Positions 12,684 to 44,146 of a stretch of DNA of 64,000 bases are shown piece after piece. Every line of letters begins with the position of its first letter. Position 1 is the first letter of the stretch. Source of the DNA: Halichondria panicea (Eukaryota; Porifera; Demospongiae; Suberitida; Halichondriidae); NCBI RefSeq assembly GCF_963675165.1, contig NC_087379.1, positions 4,295,442-4,359,441 of the forward strand. Reading direction: 5' to 3'. The notes beneath the pieces are model-generated. The model searched no databases. It was not told the DNA's origin and was given only the letters and a program-made list of their open reading frames with translations. A program made the position numbers and the translations under genes.

Positions 12684-13848
12684 ATGAGACACAAAAAACC
12701 CAAGAGCAAACAGCAAACAGAATGCAGTTATTGCGGCGGGGAACACATTCACCAAAAATGTGGTGCCGAATGCATGAAGTGTGGTAAACGAAATCATTTC
12801 GCTAGAGTATGCCGATCAGGAAAACCGAACACCACACGTGCTGAAGTCAAAGAACTCGACTATGAAAGCTCCAGTGAAGATGACATCTTTCTATACACTA
12901 TCGACGGCCCAGACCACAAGGATTGGAGCACCGACATCAGCATCAACTCTCACGATGTTAAATTCAAAATTGACACAGGTGCACAATTGCAACGTCATGT
13001 CTACCGCAACGTACAAACTTGTTTCGAAACAAATTCTCACCAAATCCAAAGCAAAACTAACCGCGCAAAGGCTCAAATCTCGTGGCAAACTCAACCTCTT
13101 ATGCGAACACAAAAATAAGTATCGATCAATCGAATTCGAAATCCTCGATAATGTAACAAACGTACTTGGCTTGAAAACATGCGAGGAAATGAGACTTGTA
13201 AAACGAATTGACACCTTGTCAGACGATACACTGAGCAAATACGCTGACAGCTTCACTGGTTTGGGTTGCATCAAAGATATTGTCCACCACATTCAAATCG
13301 ACGAGCCAGTTGTACACCCACCACGCAAAGTTCCTGTCACAATACGGTCCAAAGTAAAAGAGGAATTACAACGTATGGAACGACTAGAAGTCATTGAGCG
13401 TGTACATGAACCTACCGACTGGGTTAACTCCATGGTAACCGTAGTAAAACCTAACGGACAGCTCCGAATCTGCATTGACCCGAAAGACCTCAACAAGGCA
13501 ATAAAGAGAGAATACTACCCCATAAAGACTATTGAAGAGATAGCTGCTCGAATGCCACATGCAACAACCTTCTCTGTTCTAGATGCCCGCGCAGGATTTT
13601 GGCAACTAAAGCTCGACAACCAAAGTGCCAAGCTCTGTACCTTCAATACTCCATTTGGGCGATACATGTTCAAACGGCTCCCATTCGGAATATTGTCAGC
13701 TCAAGATGTTTTCCAAGCTGCTATGTCGGATATCTTTGAGGACACTGAAGGTGTCGAAGTTGTTGTTGATGACATATTAGTGTGGGGCACCACCATCGAA
13801 GAACCAGGCTCGAGCAAGTCCTGCAACGTGCACAAGAGCGGAATCTAA
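12684..13848 (+). CDS. Gypsy nucleocapsid, protease and reverse transcriptase (two frames)
   Basis: A first frame from 12684 has the CCHC-type fingers CSYCGGEHIHQKC and CMKCGKRNHFARVC, then FKIDTGAQ, the retropepsin active site, where the frame breaks (about 12985). A second frame continues with the RT: DWVNSMVTVVKPNGQLRICI, FSVLDARAGFWQ, CTFNTPFGRYMFKRLPFGI, and VVVDDILVWG as the catalytic DD box. It ends at another frame change near 13810. RT copies element RNA into DNA in the particle. Confidence 0.9.
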
Positions 13849-15878
13849 AACTCAACAAAGACAAAAGCCAGATAAGGCTAAAAGAGATCAGCTACATAGG
13901 TCACATCCTAAGCCAAGATGGAGTCAGACCAGACCCAAAGAAAGTACGAGCAATCACCCAGTTGCAGGCCCCCACGAACAAAGAAGAGCTACAGCGATTC
14001 CTAGGTATGACAACATACCTATCAAAGTTCATTCCCAACTACTCACAAACATCAGCATCATTAAGAACGTTGCTAGAGAAGGAATCTGAGTGGCATTGGG
14101 AAGAGCAACAAAAGAGTGCACTGTCAACACTGAAAAAACTCATAACGAATGCTCCAGTGTTACAATATTTCAACCCAAGCAACCAAACTACAATCTCTGT
14201 AGATGCCAGTTCAAAAGGGATGGGTGCAGTCCTGCTACAAGACGGATACCCAATTGCTTATGCGTCCAAGTCACTAACAACCACCCAACAAAACTACGCT
14301 GCCTTCGGCTGCAAAAAATTCCATGACTATGTGTATGGTATACCGAAAATCACAGTAGAGACCGACCACAAACCACTCGAAACAATTCTAACCAAACCAT
14401 TGCACACAGCCCCCGCTCGGCTACAGAAAATGATCATGTCCATCCAAAAGCACCCGATTCATGTCATTTACAAACCAGGAAAAGAACTCCTAATAGCAGA
14501 CACACTTTCGAGAGCCCCCCTACCTGACAAAGCAACCGAGTTAGAATTCCAGCAATACGATATTAACATAATACACCTACTTCCGGTAACTGAACCAAAG
14601 CTGGCAGAAATCCAAGAACAAACAGAACGAGATACTGCTCTCCGTGACCTACACAAAACGATACAAGATGGTTGGCCAGAAACAAAATCAGATGCACTCC
14701 CTGGTGCCAAACCATATTGGAACTTTCGTGATGAAGTCACATACCACCACGGACTCCTATTCAAAGGAAACAACATTATAATACCGGCTTCAATGCAAAA
14801 AGAGATCGTCCACAACGCACACCTTGGAGTTGAAAAATGCAAGCGACGAGCCAAAGATGTAATGTTCTGGCCAGGTATGGCAGCACAAATCACAGACACA
14901 GTTCTAAGCTGCTCTACGTGCTCAACACAACAACGGAGTAATACAAAAGAACCACAGAAGTCACATCCGACTCCCTCTCGTCCATGGGAAAGAGTAGCTG
15001 CTGATTTATGCCAACTAAATGACCAACACTACCTGGTTTTGGTAGACTACTATTCAAACTTCATCAAAGTAGACAAACTCTCAGAGACTACTAGTGAAAA
15101 GATTATCGATTGTTGCAAATGTCACTTTTCCCGTCACGGAATCCCTGATGTTTTTGTTTCTGACAATGGACCACAATTTTCTAGTACCAAATTCCACGAG
15201 TTTTCCAAAACGTACCGGTTTAATCACCATACTAGCAGTCCACACTACCCGCAGTCAAATGGCAAGGCCGAGAAAGCAGTCCAGACCACCAAAAGTCTAT
15301 TACAGAAAGCCATATCTGAAAAAAAGGATTTTCAGTTAGCACTGTTGGATTTCAGAAACACACCTACAAATGACGTTCTAGGATCCCCCGCTCAACGTCT
15401 CATGGGTCGTAGAACAAAGACCTTGTTACCTACAACAGCTAAATTGTTGGCTCCGAAAACCATACAACCATCAGTTGTCAAAGCAAATCTCCTTGCACAA
15501 AAGGAAACTCAGAAGCTATATTTCGATCAACATACAAAAGTCTTACCTGTGTTAGACAAAGGAACCAAAGTCATGTTCCAATGTGGCAAAATATGGAAAC
15601 CAGCAAGTGTTAGAAACATTTCATCACATCCCCGGTCCTACATTCTTGTCACTGCTGATGGACAAACGTATCGAAGGAACAGGAGACATATTAGACCCTT
15701 GCATCATGTTTCCGAGCAGACAAACGAAGATGTCAGTGACGAAGAAGTTGACGAAGAAGTTGACGAAACACCGACTATACCTAATGAACCAAGCGATTTA
15801 AGTGGAGAACAAAACCCGAGACGACACTGGATTCGTAAACCTGTTCGATATGACCCGTCAAACCCAGAGACTGTTTAA
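13810..15878 (+). CDS. Gypsy RT thumb, RNase H and integrase
   Basis: One long open frame. It starts with NLKLNKDKSQIRLKEISYIG (RT end) and continues with RNase H (TISVDASSKGMGAVL, TVETDHKPL), the integrase HHCC finger (HLGVEKCKRR...CSTC) and the DDE core (AADLCQLN, VSDNGPQF, SNGKAEKAVQ). It closes with an acidic tail and RPLHHVSE. All integrase catalytic residues are in place, so this half looks intact. It was expressed as part of the pol polyprotein. Confidence 0.92.
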
Positions 15879-20009: not shown

Positions 20010-20513
20010 ATCTAAACGGAAGTCTGGACTACACACAAGCGGCTAGAATGGAATGTGCGTGGGAGTCGCATACTCCTCTTCATACACTCCTGATGTTGTG
20101 TTGCTTTTACACAGCATAGAATGCCTGAAGGGGGTAGGATCTCTAGGATCTAGGAGTTGCCCAAAGCCAATTTTGAAAAAATAACGTACTTGGCTACTGG
20201 GCAGGGAACGAGATCGAGAGCTTGACCTTCTAATTAAATTTTTTTGTGATGTGGGGGCGGCTCCAGAGGATTATGCACAAGCACATGAAACTTTAAAATC
20301 TCTAGTGCATGCATTTAGTGTTAGCAAAGCTTACAATGTGATTTAGCTAGATAGAGCAAGTTCTCAGTTTAACAAATAAGAAAGATATCATGGACTGACT
20401 AAGCACATGGTCACAATGACCTAAATACATAACACAAGAAAGTTCTAGAATGTTCCAGACTAGTCTAAACATAGATATGACATCATTATCAACTAAGTGT
20501 ACATATACTAACA

Positions 20514-21988
20514 CTCCTTCTCAATTTGCTTGATAATGGGAACAACTCCAGCCAGGTTCTCAAACTTAACTTGGGTGTAAGTCCTTTGGTCAGCATGTCT
20601 GCTATCATCTGATCGCTGCTACAGTACTTGAGCTTCACAGTCTCAGCAACAACTTGTTCACGAACGAAGTGGTGACGTAAGTCGATATGCTTCGATCTTC
20701 CATGGAATACAGTATTCTGTGCCAGTGCAATCGCTGACTGGTTGTCCTCGTTCATAACTGTAGCTTCTTGTGGTGCACAATTTAACTCCGAAAGTAAACG
20801 TCTGAGCCACATTACTTCCTGTGTAGCACTTGAAAGTGCAATATATTCAGCCTCTGCTGTTGAAAGTGCAACTGAACTCTGCTTTCTGCTCTTCCAGCTG
20901 ATAGGAGCACCACTTAACATGAACATATATCCAGAGGTTGACTTCCTGTCGTCCAGGTCCCCAGCCCAGTCAGAATCTGAATAGCCTGTTAGCTCCTCAG
21001 CATCACTCCTTCTGTAGAGTAGTCCAAGATCAGCTGTACCCTTGAGGTATCTGAGAATTCTCTTTACACCCTGCCAGTGCTGCTTCGTTGGTTTAGAAGA
21101 GAATTTTGCAACCATACTCACTGCAAAAGCAATATCAGGCTTAGTACCAGTAGACACATATAACAAACTGCCAACAGCCGATCGATACACTTCGGAATCA
21201 AACAAATCACCCTCACCGTCACCAGCACGCACAAGCTTAGCACTCACATCAACAGGGGTTCCAACACTCTTAGCATCTTTCATTTCATACCTCACCAGCT
21301 CCTTCTCAACATACGCAGGTTGACCAATCCATACATTTCCAGACTCTTCATTCTGAATAACCTTCAACCCGAGAAAATGATGCAGCTTTCCAAGATCTTT
21401 CATGTCAAAGCCTGAACATAACTTTCTCTTGAGGTCTGTCAACTGCTCGTCCGACTTACATCCGATTACGAGATCATCTACATACACACCAACAACCATC
21501 AACTCGTCAATTGCTGCCACATAGATGCAGGGGTCACTGTTACTCTGCAGAAAGCCTAACTTCTTTAGGTGAGCATCCAGAGCCGAATTCCAACATCGTG
21601 GAGACTGTTTGAGACCATACAAACTTCGCTTCAGTCTACACACCAAGTTACCTTCTTCAACAAAACCTTCAGGCTGTCTCATATACACTTCTTCGTCCAA
21701 TTTGCCGTTTAGAAAAGCTGTGATGACATCAAGCTGATGTAGCTTCAAACCATTCCGAGCAGCCAATCCAACAATGGCCTCCATCCTAACAACAGGACAG
21801 AATGTTTCATCGTAGTCCATTCCTTTGGTCTGAGAGAAACCCTGTGCCACCAATCTAGCTTTATAACGATCCACACAACCGTCACCGTCAACTTTCACTT
21901 TAAACACCCATTTGCTACCCACGACTTTCCGATTCTCTGGCAATTTCACCAGCTCCCAAACCTTAAGTGATCTCATCTCCGATTCCAT
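20514..21988 (-). CDS. Copia reverse transcriptase and RNase H
   Basis: An open frame of almost 500 codons. RT: WVFKVKVDGDGCVDRYKARL, DYDETFCPVVRMEAI, HQLDVITAFLNGKL, QPEGFVEEG, SLYGLKQSPRCW and the catalytic VVGVYVDDLVIG. RNase H: LTGYSDSDWAGDLDDRKSTS, ALSTAEAEYIALSSATQEV, DNQSAIALAQN and RSKHIDLRHHFVRE. All key Asp residues are present. The frame is one base off the integrase frame at about 21980, probably from a small indel. Confidence 0.94.
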
Positions 21989-23430
21989 GGCTTGTTTGGA
22001 CTGTTTACAGCTTCTTGGACAGAACTTGGTTCCTCAATACTGCTCGTAGCGATAGAAGCTCTTTCTAAGTAGTAGTTCGGCTTTTGTCTGACTCTCTGCG
22101 ATGTTCTAAGAACTGGCTCAGACACATCGACACCATCGGACACATCACCATCGGCAGCATCACCATCGGACACATCAACATCATCGGACACATCACCATC
22201 GGCAGCATCACCATCGGACACATCAACACCATCGGACACATCATAATCGGCAGCATCACCATCGGACACATCACCACCGGAATCGACGTCACAATCAAAC
22301 TGGACACAAAGCTCAGGTTCACTGCCCTTCTCAAATCCAAACGCTGACTCGTTAAACTTTACATCACGACTGTAGAAAACTCTGTCTCGATTTGAATCAT
22401 ACAGGCAATAGCCCTTCACCTCAGTGCCATAGCCAACAAGGACACATCTTCTAGCAACTGGATCCAACTTCTTCCTCTCATCTTTTGCTATGTGGGCATA
22501 ACAAACACATCCAAACGCACGGAGATTCTCAACACTCGGCTTTCTCCCATGATATGCCTCAAAAGGGGTCATCCCTTCCACTGCTTTGGATGGACTTCGA
22601 TTCCTCAAATACACCGCCGTAGACAACGCTTCCGCCCAAAGCCTCTGAGATAAATTACCACCAACCAACATAGACCGTGTCATCTCCACCAATGTACGAT
22701 TTAGTCGCTCGGCTGTGCCATTTTGTTGAGGAGTCTTAGGAACGGTGAGTTCATGAGTGACTCCTTCTGCCTTCAAATACTCTTTGAACCTCATTGACGT
22801 GTACTCACCGCCATTATCCGAGCGCAATACCTTCAACTTCCGATCACTTGCTTTCTCCACCATGGCTTTCCACTCCAAAAAACGAGAGAACACTTCATCT
22901 TTGCGTCTCAAAAAATACACCCACACATACCTCGTCTTGTCATCCACAAACGTTAAGAAATACTCTGCACCACCAATCGACTTAGCGTTAACCTTGCCAC
23001 ACACATCAGTGTGAACCAGTCCAAGAGGTTCTTTAGCTCGATTTCCACCACCGACGGGAAAGGGGCTCTTGTGGTGATTCCCCACAACACACGACTCACA
23101 GAAAACAATGTCCTTAGATTTGTCAAAGTTAAAACCGTCAACAAGACCATCAGCAGCCAACTGTCTCAAACTTCCAATACTTAAATGACCAAAACGTTTG
23201 TGCCAAACATCTTCAGCAACATTGGATTTTTCCAGGGACTGACAGTTGAGAAAATAAAGACTACCACACCGAACCGCCGTTGCTATAACCTTGCTATCAG
23301 CATTCAAAATCCGACAACCAGCCTCATCAAACTGAGTTACCTTCCCAGCCTCAGATGCCTTGGAAACACTGAGCAGATTGTACGATAGATCAGGAACAAA
23401 CAACACATCATGAAGCTTGAGTAGCACCAC
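21973..23430 (-). CDS. Copia integrase region
   Basis: An open frame of about 485 codons. It contains LHDVLFVPDLSYNLLSVSKA, the GAG_pre-integrase motif (WHKRFGHLSIGSL) and the integrase core with DVCGKVN, VLRSDNGGEY and TPQQNGTAERLNRTL (D, D, E residues present). It ends in the linker before RT. The Asp/Ser/Gly repeat at 22110-22275 lies in the linker. The enzyme inserts element DNA into chromosomes. Confidence 0.92.
   Translation of the reverse strand: MVLLKLHDVLFVPDLSYNLLSVSKASEAGKVTQFDEAGCRILNADSKVIATAVRCGSLYFLNCQSLEKSNVAEDVWHKRFGHLSIGSLRQLAADGLVDGFNFDKSKDIVFCESCVVGNHHKSPFPVGGGNRAKEPLGLVHTDVCGKVNAKSIGGAEYFLTFVDDKTRYVWVYFLRRKDEVFSRFLEWKAMVEKASDRKLKVLRSDNGGEYTSMRFKEYLKAEGVTHELTVPKTPQQNGTAERLNRTLVEMTRSMLVGGNLSQRLWAEALSTAVYLRNRSPSKAVEGMTPFEAYHGRKPSVENLRAFGCVCYAHIAKDERKKLDPVARRCVLVGYGTEVKGYCLYDSNRDRVFYSRDVKFNESAFGFEKGSEPELCVQFDCDVDSGGDVSDGDAADYDVSDGVDVSDGDAADGDVSDDVDVSDGDAADGDVSDGVDVSEPVLRTSQRVRQKPNYYLERASIATSSIEEPSSVQEAVNSPNKPWNRR
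22110..22275 (-). repeat. In-frame minisatellite encoding an acidic Asp-Val-Ser-Asp-Gly repeat
   Basis: Units of 15-30 bases around CATCGGACACATCACCATCG encode VDVSDGDAADGDVSDG-like repeats, about eight acidic modules between integrase and RT. Antisense frames over it (Ile/His-rich) are spurious. Confidence 0.85.
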
Positions 23431-24357
23431 TAGGTAACTTCATCCACAAATCTCGACCAATTGCCTCTAAGCTTCGACCATCTCCAACCGTCACCTTCTC
23501 TGGCCTCGGCAATGTACGGAAAACAACAAAATCGCGTCTGGTATTGCACATATGGCACGTAGCTCCTGAGTCAACAATCCAACTAGCCGAAGCACCTACT
23601 AAACTCGCCTCTTCATCGCTCAAATCATCAGCTATCGCACTATTAGACTTGTGCTTCTCAGACCGAGCCAACTTCAAACAATCCCTCTGATAGTGCCCAA
23701 GCTCGTGACAATAGTAACAACGTCCTTTCGGCTTATTCGACCACTTGGCTTTAGTTGTCATAGCCTTGGCATCACCATCACTTTGACCACTCAACATACC
23801 ACTCAACATCTTCCTTTCCTTGTGCACCAACCTTTCTGTCACCACCTCCATCAAGGGTACCTCAGGGCTAGCCTCGAGAGCAGTGACTAGCACACTGAAA
23901 GAGTCCGGTAAACTTGCCAACAAGTGAACTACTCAATCCTCATCAGATAGTGGAGCATCAATGCCAGCTAACGCATTGAAGAGTTCAGTCATCTTTCTGA
24001 CATGCTCCAGCACCGACTCGCCGTCCGACAAGTAGACTTTCCGCCTAAGCTCAAGCCGATTGACCCATGATTTCTTCATAAACTGCTCGCTTAACTTTTT
24101 CCAAACTTTTGCAGGAGCTCACCAATCAAATACAACAGATTCAGATCGACAGACAACACCACAATAGCCAACGCCCGATCTCGCTTCGACAAATAATTCA
24201 CATAACCAGCATCACTGTCTGCCAGGGCAGCCTCAGTACCTTCAACAATTCTCCAGAGTCCTTCCTTCATAAGCGACATCTGGCATTGTACCCTCCATGT
24301 CGCGTCATTGGCACCATTCAACGGGACAACAGCAACCATGCTCCTCGATTCGGCCAT
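23424..24357 (-). CDS. Copia Gag and protease, broken
   Basis: From ATG 24357 the frame reads MAESRSMVAVVPLNG and the Gag core. After a frame change at about 24110 it reads VWKKLSEQFMKKSW, then meets a TGA near 23935. It resumes with LASLPDSFSVLVTALE, the CCHC knuckle CYYCHELGHYQRDC and the protease active site WIVDSGATCHM. Gag packages RNA; the protease matures the polyprotein. Confidence 0.88.
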
Positions 24358-25217: not shown

Positions 25218-26057
25218 TAGTCTCGGTCCCAAGGATGATGTTAGATCTGCCCTAATAGAACTCCAATCAAAATTTGAAGATAAAATATGTACTGTAGCGC
25301 GTACAAGCCACACAGTATTAAATGATCCACTGGAACATGGGTAAAGAATCCAGAAATGAGAAGTGAAGATACTAGAGTCTGTTTCGGTAGACCGAGACGT
25401 TGCAGATCTCAAGGATCGATTGCTTTCACTTGCACAGTACGGCCTGGGAATTGCAAATGGTGAAACAAAAAGTGAGATAGTATGAAATGCATCAAGTAAA
25501 TAGATATAGTGAAACAAGAGTGGAGGTGGTGGGAAGGGTTACTGGTACTAGATATCTACATCGTCTAGAGCTAGCTATTTAATATGTATAAACTTGTGCC
25601 ATAGATAGTAGAGGATACATGGTTCATCACAAGGAGGCTAGCAGTCTGCTCTCCCTGGCCCCAGGCCCTAGTTAGCTGCTCTGAAGAAACTAATAATGAT
25701 TTGACAGTTACGGTTTTTAACCATTAAAACGAGTATTTTATATTCAAGGTTCAAAGGTCGACAATGGACATATTTCCTGTATTTTTACTCAGAGGAGGAA
25801 TGCCAGTGTCAAAAGGTATACTAATTAAAACACCACATGGCCCTATGTAAAACTGAGTTTACCCTCGCGCCCTAGCCTCGATCCCAGGCCGAGTTTTCGC
25901 TTTTATAACGGTTAGGCGAACAACTAGGCCTGGTACTAGTTGTCTGCGCATGCGTCGATTACCGCGGTATCTCTGCGTAAAAATAATCATCATACAGGTG
26001 TTGTACACGAAAATTCACAGTATACAAGTTGCACATGGTTGTGCATAATAGTATAGT

Positions 26058-26336
26058 ATGTCTGAAGTAGAGAGTTGCAGATTGTGCTGCAGCACAGTAA
26101 TAGTGTCCCAGCATAACTTCAGGATGGTATTTAGCACTGAATGCCTCAAGGTAGATTTTGCAGGAAGGCTTAGCAGGCTGCTGGACCTTCCAGTTCTTCA
26201 ATCTGATGGACTATCCGAGTACCTGTGCAGATCTTGCTTGAGAAAGGTTGATTCTCTTGAGGCTTTAAGTGTCTTGCACGACAGAGCTACCAGAAACAAC
26301 GAAGCAGATACACTCCAGTCCTGTAAAGTAGGGCAG
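26058..26336 (+). CDS. Exon 1 of the transposon gene: ZAD-like zinc finger
   Basis: ATG 26058 lies 101 bp inside the left TIR. The product opens MSEVESCRLCCSTV and has CRLC near residues 7-10 and CRSC near residues 57-60. Between them it reads DFAGRLSRLLDLPVLQSDGL, the spacing and hydrophobic pattern of a ZAD (zinc-finger-associated) dimerisation domain. A splice donor GGGCAG|GTAA follows at 26336. ZAD domains dimerise transcription factors in insects; here the likely role is DNA or partner binding by the transposase. The next exon-like stretch is 26545-26643 (VGSQTDV), with phases that do not quite match, so small indels are likely. Confidence 0.6.
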
Positions 26337-26670
26337 GTAAAAAAAGACCTAAGGACACAAGTGGGAATGAAGCCTCACCTCACACTGTCCAGTCTCGCCC
26401 GTTAGCGAAGAGGAGCACTGTTGGAACAGCTGGAAAGAGATTGGTCTTTGCTCCTATACTAGGCACTCTATTAATACATACATGCACGTACACTATACAT
26501 AATAATACATATACATAATTGAAAAAAATTGTTACATAATAGGTGGTCCCGAAGATACTTGTAGCCAGTCGTCTCCTGTGTTAGAAGTACTTCCTGTTCG
26601 CACTGTTGGTAGTCAAACAGATGTTGACATATCCAGTGTAATGGTAAGCAATATACACTATGTAAAATAC

Positions 26671-28732
26671 GGGTCCGGATAATATGTCACTAAAGGAAAA
26701 AAGTGCCCCAAGTATATAGGAGAGCTTTAATGCTCGTCGGCACTATATCTCTCCTATATACTATGAGGTATTTTTATAATGCATGTGCATTAAACAATTT
26801 CCCTAGGTATATAGGAGAGCATTAATGTCCATTGGCATTAAAGCTCTCCTATATACTATAGGAAACATTTAATGATCGGCACTAAATCTCTCCTATAATA
26901 ATATGGGATATGCTTTATGATTGAGGGCACTAAGTCTCTCCTATAATGATATGGGATACGCTTAATTAATGCTTGGCACTAAGTCTCCTATAAAAATATG
27001 GATAATGTGTAATGATTGAGGGCACTAAATCTCTCCTATAATAATATGGGAGGTTCTTAATGACTGAGGGCACTAATACTCTCCTATATTACTTTAGACC
27101 TTTCCTATATATCAGATATGACTATAGGAATGATATTGTGTGCCCAGCACTAAAGCTCTCCTATAATAATATGGACAATGCCTAATGTCTGGGGGCACTA
27201 AGTCGCCCACCAAAAGGTGTTAATGTAAAATGATATGAGGCGCTTACATTAGTTAATGAAGGTGCTAAATGTTGATAAATTAGTTGCTTCACTTCTTATC
27301 TTATCGAAAGAGACTGCACACAGATAATGACCCAGAAGGTCCTCCCGACAGAAAACATGCATTCAATTCAGGTGATCATACACCAACAGGTCACAAGAAA
27401 GCAAGACACAGTTTTAAGTTAGCAGACAGCAGCAACAAGAGAAAATCATGTTGGTACTAAGAAGATGGGGCAAAGTGTATTATATTTAGTAGATCGATCT
27501 AACATGATTTATAATTATGCATATAGGAGGATGTGCAAACAATTAAGAGAGTACACTTTAAATTATTTATGTATATAATTATAGGTATAGTTACATGCAT
27601 GTAGAATTCATTCAGACTGAGTTATTTTTATGCAGATAAAATTCTGATCTCGGATAGTCCTCCAACACCCACCGAGTATTGGATTTCACTTACGAGGTCG
27701 ATACTACTGAAAGGAGGCTTACTCACTGACAAGCACATGGATGCATGCTTGTCTAAACACCCCATCAAAGCAATTCCCTGGTATTCCAGATCCTCAGACA
27801 GCCCAACTTCCAGGATCTCTTAAAGCCGCCCAACAAAAATCGATGTTCTTTCACAATTTTTCTGGTCATTGGGCACTGTCAAGTCGTAGCAGTGGCATCG
27901 TCTTCCTCTTCGATTCTCTTCTGCCAAAGGAGCTCGACCTGAAGTTAAAAGAGCAGATGCTGTTGCTCTATGGAAAATGCCTGGTACAAAGACCATATGT
28001 ACAGCGCCAAAAGGGCAGCAAGGACTGTGGGTGCTTTGCAATCGCCTTTTGTGTGTTATTATTATATGGGGAAGATCCTTCGAGTTTGCTGTTTAACCAG
28101 AAGGAGATGCGAGGACACATATTCAGCTGCTTAACACAGGAAAGCTTTCTACCTTTCCCTGCATGTGCCGTGACGAAGAAAGCAAGACGTCCTCTTGAAC
28201 TATGCCTTGATTAGTTTTGACATTGATAGTTTAGTTAAATTGTCCCTTCTTCCCCATACAAATTTGAAGCATAATTAATGATTGTTGTTAGTGCAAACAG
28301 GATAAATTATCTCCTATAGTTATTTAGGAGAGACTTATAGTGCCCTCAGATATTAAGCATACCCCATATTATTATAGGAGAGACTTAGTGCTCCCAGACA
28401 TTAGGCATTGTCCATATTATTATAGGAGAGACTTAGTGCCGAGCATTAAGCGTATCCCATATCATTATAGGAGACCCTCAATCATAAAGCATATCCCATA
28501 TTACTAAGGAGAGATTTGGTGCCGAGCATTAAATGTTTCCTATAGTATATAGGAGAGCTTTAATGCCAATGGACATTAATGCTCTCCTATATACCTGGGG
28601 AAATTGTTTAATGCACATGCATTATAAAAATGCCTCATAGTATATATAGGAGAGGTATAGTGCCGACGAGCATTAAAGCTCTCTTATATACTTGGGGCAC
28701 TTTTTCCATTTAGTGACATTCTGTACGGAACC
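26671..28732. mobile_element. Mutator-like element with Ulp1 gene, nested in the intron of the 6-kb transposon
   Basis: The ends GGGTCCGGATAATATGTCAC and GTGACATTCTGTACGGAACC pair, followed by TIRs of about 450 bp or more. Flanks are GTAAAATAC (26662-26670) and GTAAAATCC (28733-28741), a 9-bp TSD with one mismatch. The TIRs are built from 55-65-bp tandem units such as TCTCCTATAATAATATGGG...GGCACTAA. Long TIRs, 9-bp TSDs and an Ulp1 passenger are typical of MULEs (as in plant Kaonashi MULEs). No MURA-type transposase is seen, so it is non-autonomous. Confidence 0.8.
27640..28214 (+). CDS. Ulp1/SENP-like cysteine protease (C48) passenger gene
   Basis: After an acceptor-like TTTTTATGCAG (about 27635) the frame reads TEYWISLTRSILLKGGLLTD. 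One frame change near 27745 leads into a frame ending at 28214. Catalytic landmarks: His in GHWALSS, Asp in VFLFDSLLP, Gln in RQKGSKDCGCF with the nucleophile Cys of DCG, then MRGHIFSCL. C48 proteases remove ubiquitin-like tags; in MULEs and related elements their role is unknown. An upstream exon may lie at 27305-27460. All active-site residues remain, so this gene may have decayed only recently. Confidence 0.78.
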
Positions 28733-28873
28733 GTAAAATCCATGACAAAGTACTAGCGTATTAAAAAGAGAGGGCATGCAACAGCTTGCGAGCAATAAAC
28801 TAAAGGGGGTGTGGAAAAGTACTGTAATACCTAAAAATAAATTCTATTAATAGATACTTATTTTAACTTACAG

Positions 28874-30870
28874 ATCACGATAGGCCCAGTGAAGAGCGTG
28901 GTGGATGAAAACTTGCACAAGGTTGTGCAGGCAATAGCAACTTGTAACTGTCCTGAGGCTGTGATGGCCGAACCTTCTCTCAAAAAGGAAGTACTGATCC
29001 GTGTTGCTAGAGTGTTGGACGACGAGTGTAGCAACATGTGCAAAACAACACCACCACTGTCACTTTTCCGGAGGTTTCCTTTGTTGAGTTGTTCTCATAC
29101 AGTAACTGCATAACAGAGCTTCAGACAAAGTGTCCAACCCTATACCAGCTTCTATGGACTGTTGTAACCAGGTCTGACAAGAGGAACACTGTGAAATGCA
29201 CAAGTCAGCATTATCCCAGCATGTGCATGGCTGTTGCTCTCGTCTTAAAAGAACGAAATCAGCACATGACAGGGCTCCAGACCTTTCTCTCACTCGTTTT
29301 GTGCAATTCTAATGTACAAAAAAAGGTTGGTATAATTATATGCACACACGGATATTAGATATCGAGTGTCAGTAGTGTGCGTGTGTGTGTGCATTGTCTT
29401 GCTGATTGTAAAAGCCAACTTATAATTACACAGGTGCTTACAAGACTAAACTACATGAATGTAACTATCAGTTACACAGCAGTGATGAAACTAATCACCG
29501 GCATAAGTGAGCAACACAAGGCACCAATTGAGAAATGGGTCAACGAGGGAACAATATTTCAATTTGTAGGTGACAACGTGGACAAGACAGTGGGAGTGCG
29601 AGACATAAGAACAGACCAAAGAAGCACATTAGTACACATGTACAGCTTACTTGCTGTACGAGCCAGAGTTGATCCTCCACCTCCCATCTTTGACTTCATT
29701 CCCCCTGATTTAACCAAGATTGCGGTATCCTACTTCCTGCCAAATCAAGCAGATGTAGATGCTCTGAGGTCCAACTTGTCTCAAGGGTTCTCGCTGACTA
29801 CATTGGAGTTTTTAAGCCTCAAAAACGTAAGAGTAGTGGCTCACATTCAGCATGCCCACAGCAAGGAAATGAAAGAGAAATCAGGAGTTGTGGATGTCCT
29901 ACACAAGTGTGAGACAAAAACAACGGACATGATCGATATCATGAGAGAAATGATTTCTTACCTAGGAGACAGCGCTAACACATGTTTGTCGGTGGGTGAC
30001 CTACTCACGAAGGAGAGGCAGGACGGAAGCAAAAGACACGTTATTTGCTCTAACACACCCTCTGGTCGTCTCATCACCTAGAGCCATGTATAGCAGATTG
30101 GCACTGTCTCCTCAATTTCTTGATGGTATGGACTGCATGGCTAGTAATGTGACCTATAGGGTGTTACTTTAATAGAATAAAATAGACATACGTATCCTAA
30201 TGTTACATGTACATAAAACTGCAGGTAACCGGCTGAGGTACGTACGTATCTTACTGTAACTATGTTACTGTACGTATACTACACACAAAAGTATACCGTT
30301 TATAATACATCTCACCATTGCAGCTTGTTTGGAAACACCTCTTTAAGACCAGCCCAAGAGATCACGGCACACTTCGGCACAAGATCGGTCGACTCCCTGA
30401 TGCAAACAAACCAAAGAAGAATCTCCACGCAGGTCTTCTTACAGCGTTTTATGGGCATCTAGTGGAAGCTGCTCGTTTGGAACTTGGCATAAAGAGTGTA
30501 GACGACTTTCCACTTGACAGCACTGGAGCTAAGGTTAAAGTCAAACTTTCAGACGTTGCCAGTGCAATTGTTGACAAGTGGACTATAGTACCAGAAGCGA
30601 TTCTTGGACAGCCCCTTAATGACAGTAGTGATGTTGTCAACAATTATGCGCATGTTCTTTGTCACTTTCCTGCTCTTGTTTCAGAGTTCTACAATGGTTG
30701 GCACGAAGGTGATGGACTACGAATGCTAAGATGTTGGAAAATCCACTTCTTTGCGAATAGGAATACGAAGTATGCACTCGAATCGCTTAAGCTTCAATTT
30801 CAACTTGCTTCTCTGCCACCTGACTTAGTCCACCAGCTCACATGGGGTCGTTTTGTCTTTCCTATTGGGG
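28874..30870 (+). pseudogene. DUF6589-like protein, candidate transposase, exons 3-5
   Basis: Three exons fit consensus junctions: 28874-29325, 29434-30125 and 30324-about 30870. Landmarks in order are CMAVALVLKERNQHMTGLQT, LTRLNYMNVTISYTAVMKLI, FVGDNVDKTVGVRDIR, HMYSLLAVRARVD, SVGDLLTKERQDGSKR, and EGDGLRMLRCWKIHFF followed by LTWGRFV. From memory this layout matches uncharacterised DUF6589 proteins of corals, hydra and fungi. Asp residues in VGDNVDK and VGDLL are conserved candidates for a catalytic site. Frame changes near 29045 and 30078 and the truncated C-terminus make it a pseudogene. Function as transposase is inferred from its place in a TIR element. Confidence 0.65.
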
Positions 30871-31857
30871 ACATCTGATGGTGACCAGTATATGGTAGAC
30901 GTGGACAATTCTCCTCCCCGACCACTTTCTTGAAAGTAGTCTTCAAGTGATCTTGGAGCTCCATAGTGGACAATAGAAGTCAAATCCTTAAAGTTCATAC
31001 CCATACCGAGGGCCATAGTAGCGAACAAATTTGCACCCTCGCATGTCAAGAGTTCCGACAATCTGCCTTCTCATCTTCTCTGTTACTGTTGCAGTGGCTG
31101 CAAGCATCGGCGTACCCGGTGGAGCATAGGCTCTCAAGTCACAAATACGACCATAACAGGGACGGAAATAAGAACTCCTATTGTGGTGTATGTGTGTGTG
31201 TGTGGTTTGTAATCGTGACGTATACTAATTAAAGCACTATACATGTATAATTATTTTCTTACCATTTGTAAACACAGTGAGCCTGCCTCGTCTACAGCAA
31301 TATATAGCAACCAAAGTGTTGCAGACAGGAGGAGACAGTAACACTTTGGTCCAACTCGAGCCATGATCACCAACTAGAGCCTCAGGGGCTGAGTAAAGAA
31401 TCCTATAGCTCCCACTGCCAATACCACAGTCAGTAGCCACCAGGCTACGGTCTATCCCTCTGTTGGAGCTGATAATGGCAGCACCAACTCCTCTAGCTCG
31501 CAAACTCTTCACTTGGTCCACCATCAGAGAAACCAACGGCAACACTACCAGCACAACACTCTGATCAACGCTTGGAGATTCAGATCTACCTAGCAGCCTA
31601 TCAAACACAAATGGGAGCACTTGATAGCATATGGATTTGCCATAACCAGTCGGGAACCACACAAAGACATCATGACCTTGAGAAAGCAGGTTTATAGCCT
31701 TTACTTGCTCTGACTTTAGAATAAGATCTCCAAGTTTCAGGGAAGATAGAGCGTCAGCTATAGCACTGTCTAACACAATACAACTTAACTTGCAGTAGCC
31801 ATTCCAAATTGATAGTATACGAATATAAATGTCACAAAAGTGAACGAGAATATCCAT
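30850..31857 (-). pseudogene. RecQ-like helicase of the 6-kb transposon
   Basis: The start at 31857 is 24 bp inside the right TIR. Exon 1 (31857-31263): LKSEQVKAINLL (Q motif), DVFVWFPTGYGKSICYQVLP (motif I), LPLVSLMVDQVKSLRARGVG (Ia), ILYSAPEALVGDH, then motif II with DEA still visible but shifted by small indels. Exon 2 (31177-30850): FRPCYGRICDLRAYAPPGTP and AATATVT (motif III). This fuses directly to LFATMALGMGMNFKDL (motif V) and EDYFQESGRGG (motif VI). The region between III and V is deleted and the gene ends abruptly near 30850. RecQ-like enzymes unwind DNA; a role in transposition would be inference. Confidence 0.82.
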
Positions 31858-31974
31858 TCGTCAGAATCTGACTAACGATTGACGCATGCGCAGACAACTA
31901 GTACCAGGCCTAGTTGTTCGCCTAACCGTTATAAAAGCGAAAACTCGGCCTGGGATCGAGGCTACCTCGCGCCC

Positions 31975-44048: not shown

Positions 44049-44146
44049 TAGCCTCGATCCCAGGCCGAGTTTTCGCTTTTATAACGGTAGGCTAGTTGTT
44101 CGCCTAACCGTTATAAAAGCGAAAACTCGGCCTGGGATCGAGGCTA
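44049..44146. mobile_element. 98-bp element made only of the TIRs of the 6-kb transposon
   Basis: Both ends read TAGCCTCGATCCCAGGCCGA and GTTTTCGCTTTTATAACGG, as in the 25873-31964 TIRs, joined at a short centre. Flanks GCTCTACGC (with extra GCGC) and GCTCTACGC suggest a 9-bp TSD. It shows that the 6-kb family can mobilise near-minimal derivatives. Confidence 0.8.

Follow-up and report, generated by a model that had tools for sequence, protein, structure and literature searches.

A defective two-gene transposon with a DUF6589 gene and a RecQ-type helicase gene in the sponge Halichondria panicea, most likely of the AcademH type

We found a defective DNA transposon in a 64,000-nucleotide stretch of the genome of the sponge Halichondria panicea (C3:4295442-4359441, in the following called the window), which carries two convergent genes between terminal inverted repeats (TIRs) and most likely belongs to the AcademH type. 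One gene encodes a zf-AD/DUF6589 protein, which would be the transposase, and the other a RecQ-type helicase. The AcademH label is given by the described traits of this lineage, not by transposase sequence.

Ends, copies and short derivatives of the element

The element spans window positions 25873-31964. Its 84-bp TIRs (25873-25956 and 31881-31964), which start 5'-TAGCCTCG, are identical and differ at base 85, and an exact 10-bp target-site duplication (TSD), CCTCGCGCCC, is present at both ends. A comparison of both ends thus agrees with an earlier sequence-only reading of this DNA, which had also proposed two convergent spliced genes. These genes were recovered by Pfam, with matches to zf-AD (E 2e-6) and DUF6589 (PF20231, E 1e-6, a family that the reading had already named) on the plus strand and to DEAD (E 9e-11) and Helicase_C (E 4e-6) on the minus strand; the two genes converge at ~30856.

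Among the matches listed for the 131-Mb genome (39 contigs), both genes occur at high identity at two places only, the window and the copy on C14 (locus L031). The C14 copy is 97 % identical to the window copy in the transposase exon and 91 % in the helicase, and three piecewise alignments contain 51 mismatches in 3,760 aligned bases (11/660, 23/2116 and 17/984). Between 26220 and 31811, the window copy differs from C14 by few substitutions and many small indels, a pattern that looks like repeated small repair scars.

Compared with C14, which keeps both stretches, the window copy is short of ~660 bp at 30856 and of 339 bp at 31024. It furthermore shows twelve separate losses of 6-10 bp, several of them in frame, and several frameshifts. 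The end of DUF6589 with its conserved CDLxNE and much of the C-terminal half of the helicase are gone: none of the plus frames of the window copy contains CDLxNE, whereas the C14 counterpart of the last exon runs on into NIPCDLYNEH. The window copy is a dead, decayed transposon copy, which the earlier reading had overlooked. The C14 copy carries defects of its own, with a 2-bp and a 1-bp insertion in the zf-AD exon, a 2-bp insertion in the helicase and a partly duplicated 5' TIR; neither copy is therefore intact. In C14, no 3' TIR was found in the fetched locus of 9.9 kb. Besides C14, the genome has many short copies with the same TIRs.

A genome search with the TIR, as suggested earlier, scored 40 of 1022 candidates and gave at least 41 matches, both TIRs of the window element counted, so that the copy number is a lower bound. 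TIR pairs in the window and the fetched loci form 27 distinct elements, 22 of which are 0.97-1.15 kb long. Exact TSDs of 9 bp flank 13 elements and exact TSDs of 10 bp another three, two have a 9-bp TSD with one mismatch, and nine have none; the latter include one with a 4-bp match (CCAT), an adjoining pair in L029 and a 98-bp element in the window. When flanks of the 27 elements were re-paired at random, none of 2000 pairs gave an exact match of 8-11 bp. Five short elements were compared with the window copy: each of them matches it at both ends, and in four the match extends to inner stretches close to each end, which identifies all five as internal-deletion derivatives of the window family or of a sister family. 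Twelve 1-kb copies have a mean identity of 95.7 % (66 pairs, range 88.5-99.0 %). The 98-bp miniature element (window 44049-44146) is built from the TIRs of the window element.

Fold and catalytic residues of the DUF6589 protein

The fold of DUF6589 was predicted, with an alignment of 54 sequences, for a relative, P0029, which shares 45 % identity over 94 % of the C14 core. The P0029 model (predicted local distance difference test, pLDDT, 79; predicted template modelling score, pTM, 0.82) has an RNase H-like strand order, in which strand 1 ends at GDNVD and strand 4 at GGDQ; strand 5 leads into a long helical stretch, and the last core helix bears CDLxNEH. These positions are the acidic-residue places of RNase H-like DDE recombinases. 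Among the rows covering each column, conservation is 16/16 for D18, 15/16 for D168, 42/46 for D440 and 42/45 for E444. Exon 4 of the window copy retains the first conserved Asp (GDNVD, 29572-29574) and the second (GDLLT, 29998-30000).

Foldseek gave no significant match of the P0029 model in the PDB. When the top 1000 Foldseek-ranked chains were re-aligned by VIA (998 aligned), DDE/D recombinases filled rows 1-25; no Academ protein was named in the rows listed. A PDB sequence search with the DUF6589 profile returned FKBP14 as its sole match (E 0.04), which we took as chance. Because the predicted strand order is RNase H-like and DDE recombinases lead the re-aligned matches, DUF6589 is very probably a DDE transposase, the role that the sequence-only reading had assigned to it.

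The solved structures of Hermes (hAT), RAG1, the P element transposase and Transib resemble the DUF6589 prediction in that a large helical insert precedes the last acidic residue of an RNase H-like core; identity to the model is 6-11 % when the structures are aligned. Their TSDs of 8, 5, 8 and 5 bp, respectively, differ from the 9-10 bp found here, and to our knowledge none of them has a helicase. Both hAT and RAG1 cut via hairpins; that DUF6589 might do so too is only a guess, made by analogy with the helical insert.

Recurrence of the gene pair and its place among transposon superfamilies

The genome contains at least 92 DUF6589 matches, which collapse to 63 loci, and at least 92 helicase matches. 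A helicase match lies within 3 kb at 30 of these loci, in all 30 cases convergent, where rough arithmetic would predict ~0.25 by chance. In five other DUF6589 loci that were fetched (ranks 2, 4, 5, 7 and 18 of the genome match list), a convergent helicase is present throughout, at ~30-52 % identity to the window copy in the helicase pieces and 23-34 % in the transposase pieces. Clear TIRs with a 5'-TAG start delimit three of them (L051, L053 and L054), accompanied by exact 9-bp TSDs in L051 (GTACCGTAG) and L053 (CACTGAACA). No TSD was found in L054; in L052 there is a short inverted match but no TSD, and no convincing TIR was found in L055. The pair thus recurs in diverged elements of one genome. 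The second two-gene copy and the many short TIR copies support the earlier view of the element as a DNA transposon. The helicase, convergent at 30 loci and diverged in the five fetched, is thus a standing part of these elements and not a recent capture.

We searched the helicases for motifs I, II and VI. The C14 copy (PTGYGKS, VDEAH, QESGRAGR) and all five relatives have all three, and the window copy has motif I only; 4-bp insertions relative to C14 near 31281 and 31300 break the frame of its motif II. The earlier statement that RecQ motifs I-VI are recognizable therefore holds for the family and fails for the window copy. The C14 helicase also has a RecQ zinc-binding domain (PF16124, E 8e-7). 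It has this domain and the three motifs in common with WRN, BLM and E. coli RecQ, from which it differs in being transposon-encoded; the three C14 helicase exons scanned gave no further Pfam domain.

In viral and prokaryote contigs, the A2 profile gave no usable stretch, and stretches fitting a pattern (A3 profile) numbered 37 and 41, respectively, none of them a confirmed relative; the DUF6589/RecQ pair was thus not seen outside this genome. Single DUF6589 proteins are present in the protein database. The only relatives with an informative name are two EukProt entries coded Em0007g, which we take to be from the sponge Ephydatia muelleri. In one of them, P0030 (Em0007g1424a), an Integrase_H2C2 zinc finger is joined to DUF6589, which may reflect a gene model fused to a retroelement.

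AcademH reportedly occurs in animals and fungi, going by the title of the paper that defined it (Kojima 2020, Mob DNA 11:15). The nuclease of AcademX is of the XPG type. According to PMC10045372, AcademH is an Academ lineage that encodes a helicase and makes TSDs of 9 or 10 bp, AcademX encodes a nuclease and makes TSDs of 3 or 4 bp, and these lengths are tied to the encoded helicase or nuclease; the AcademH lineage is also treated in PMC10799480. The window family shares with AcademH a helicase gene and TSDs of 9 or 10 bp, for which reason AcademH is the best name for it. A further AcademH trait, an RNase H-like DDD/E transposase, agrees with the predicted P0029 model and the conserved acidic residues. 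AcademX was rejected, since the TSDs are 9-10 bp long and none of the nine XPG_I matches in the genome adjoins a listed DUF6589 place in a comparison by eye. The sequence-only reading knew of no described superfamily with this gene set. That none has been described is probably wrong, as AcademH has a helicase and 9- or 10-bp TSDs (PMC10045372) and RecQ is known in Kolobok (PMC9587614).

An undescribed, separate superfamily, in which a DUF6589 transposase acquired RecQ independently of AcademH, is an unlikely alternative. In its favour, DUF6589 goes unnamed in the literature searched, and its Pfam entry still reads "family of unknown function"; however, both AcademH traits, the helicase and the TSD length, are present. 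The fuller version of this idea is just as doubtful, namely that DUF6589 represents a DDE superfamily apart from Academ, with dozens of loci, a standing convergent RecQ and zf-AD added in one family.

An affiliation with Kolobok, whose TSD is TTAA, deserves mention because of its helicases. According to PMC9587614, Kolobok transposases are of the DDD/E type with C/DxxH between the second D and the last E, KolobokH, found in fungi only, carries RecQ, and the red-alga element Kolobok-1_CCri has RecQ on the complementary strand; both resemble the window family in combining a DDD/E transposase with a RecQ helicase. A Kolobok element of either kind is nevertheless highly improbable: 16 of the 27 elements have exact TSDs of 9 or 10 bp, and the lone 4-bp match is CCAT and not TTAA. 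At the place of C/DxxH, after the second Asp, the window family and its relatives have the conserved motif EDWH (E200 16/16, H203 18/18 in the A2 profile).

We give equally little credence to a MuDR/MULE element with a captured RecQ gene. The TSDs of MuDR/MULE elements measure 8-11 bp, and TSD length alone would fit, but the exons scanned gave no MULE match in Pfam, and the convergent helicase at 30 DUF6589 loci, with only ~30-52 % identity to the window copy in the five fetched, speaks against a capture. That the TIRs flank unrelated genes of the host or of other transposons by coincidence, an idea for which one could invoke the many other transposons in the window and the foreign element nested inside this one, is refuted by C14, where both genes recur and are arranged alike, by the 10-bp TSD and by the flank re-pairing control.

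Two further observations concern the same protein families. Open frames of 1617-1732 aa surround DUF6589 matches at three places. One of these, L056 (C9:1649800-1652400), is a long single frame of different appearance that runs through 866 codons with no stop, matches DUF6589 distantly (E 3e-14) and has no helicase match nearby; it is probably a further mobile element with DUF6589. About two dozen helicase matches with one internal TAA, nearly all away from DUF6589 (C1:9270906, C7:3232455, C6:2763570 and others), possibly belong to a different helicase-bearing element.

The window copy in its surroundings and a proposed mechanism

The features of the window copy are listed in Table 1. In its first exon, zf-AD (ZAD) lies at ~26076-26267 and the open frame stops at 26405.

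Table 1. Features of the decayed transposon copy in the window (positions are those of the window).
Feature	Position	Strand	Evidence
Left TSD copy CCTCGCGCCC, 10 bp	25863..25872	.	
Left TIR, 84 bp, 5' start TAGCCTCGATCCC	25873..25956	+	
Gene 1, exon 1; ATG at 26058; 3' limit approximate, from C14 and P0030	26058..26460	+	PF07776 E 2e-6
Gene 1, exon 2, short; start approximate, donor GT at 26644	26543..26643	+	by eye and vs C14
Nested foreign element, ~2.06 kb, limits approximate, within gene 1 intron	26671..28732	.	C14 without insert
Gene 1, exon 3; 7-bp loss near 29086 breaks frame	28874..29325	+	splice sites by eye, vs C14
Gene 1, exon 4; DUF6589/putative transposase core begins; frameshift near 30073	29434..30125	+	C14 exon DUF6589 E 2e-11
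Gene 1, last exon, truncated by the deletion that takes the final helix with CDLxNE	30324..30855	+	PF20231 E 1e-6
Deletion junction (~660 bp), fusing 3' parts of the convergent genes	30856..30856	.	vs C14
Helicase C-terminal half, remnant; motif VI shortened by 9-bp loss, 339 bp gone at 31024	30880..31070	-	PF00271 E 4e-6
Helicase N-terminal half; motif I (PTGYGKS) intact	31280..31857	-	PF00270 E 9e-11
Right TIR, 84 bp, identical to left TIR	31881..31964	-	
Right TSD copy, 10 bp	31965..31974	.	

The site in C14 is free of the nested element, which is thus a later insertion and had escaped the earlier reading. It has inverted repeats of ~0.5 kb composed of many short sub-repeats, a duplication of ~7-8 bp (TAAAATA/TAAAATC) and an Ulp1/C48-like open reading frame (27711-28214) whose PF02902 match is weak and below the cut-off (E 0.11). 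This frame matches 18 genome pieces, its own included, eight of them on contig C11, and related copies of the element occur in L036-L038. Retroelement genes lie elsewhere in the window (DUF1759, 1224-2390; RVT_1 and integrase, 12778-15878; RVT_2 and integrase, 20489-23439), which is a transposon-rich stretch.

In working relatives, the catalytic triad would consist of one Asp each of GDNVD and GGDQ and of the Glu in CDLxNE, and a long insert of helices would separate the second acidic residue from the third, as in the hAT, RAG1 and P-element transposases. Binding of the TIRs, cutting and strand transfer over 9-10 bp are proposed because of the enzyme class, a DDE transposase. The transposase would pair the two TIRs with their 5'-TAG ends, excise the element and join it to the target strands at points separated by 9 or 10 bp, and gap filling would then produce the TSD. 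In zinc-finger proteins of insects, zf-AD acts as a pairing domain; the N-terminal zf-AD module of this family would serve protein pairing, not catalysis. The convergent RecQ-type helicase would open the DNA, either at the ends of the transposon or where the target is gapped, and might in this way aid transposition or repair.

With these results, the Pfam family DUF6589, listed as a "family of unknown function", gains a candidate function as a DDE transposase. DUF6589 and RecQ form a tightly kept pair across diverged elements of a single eukaryote genome. The pair therefore lends itself to two questions: for what reason a helicase is present in some cut-and-paste transposons, and whether it is this enzyme that sets the target duplication of 9-10 bp.
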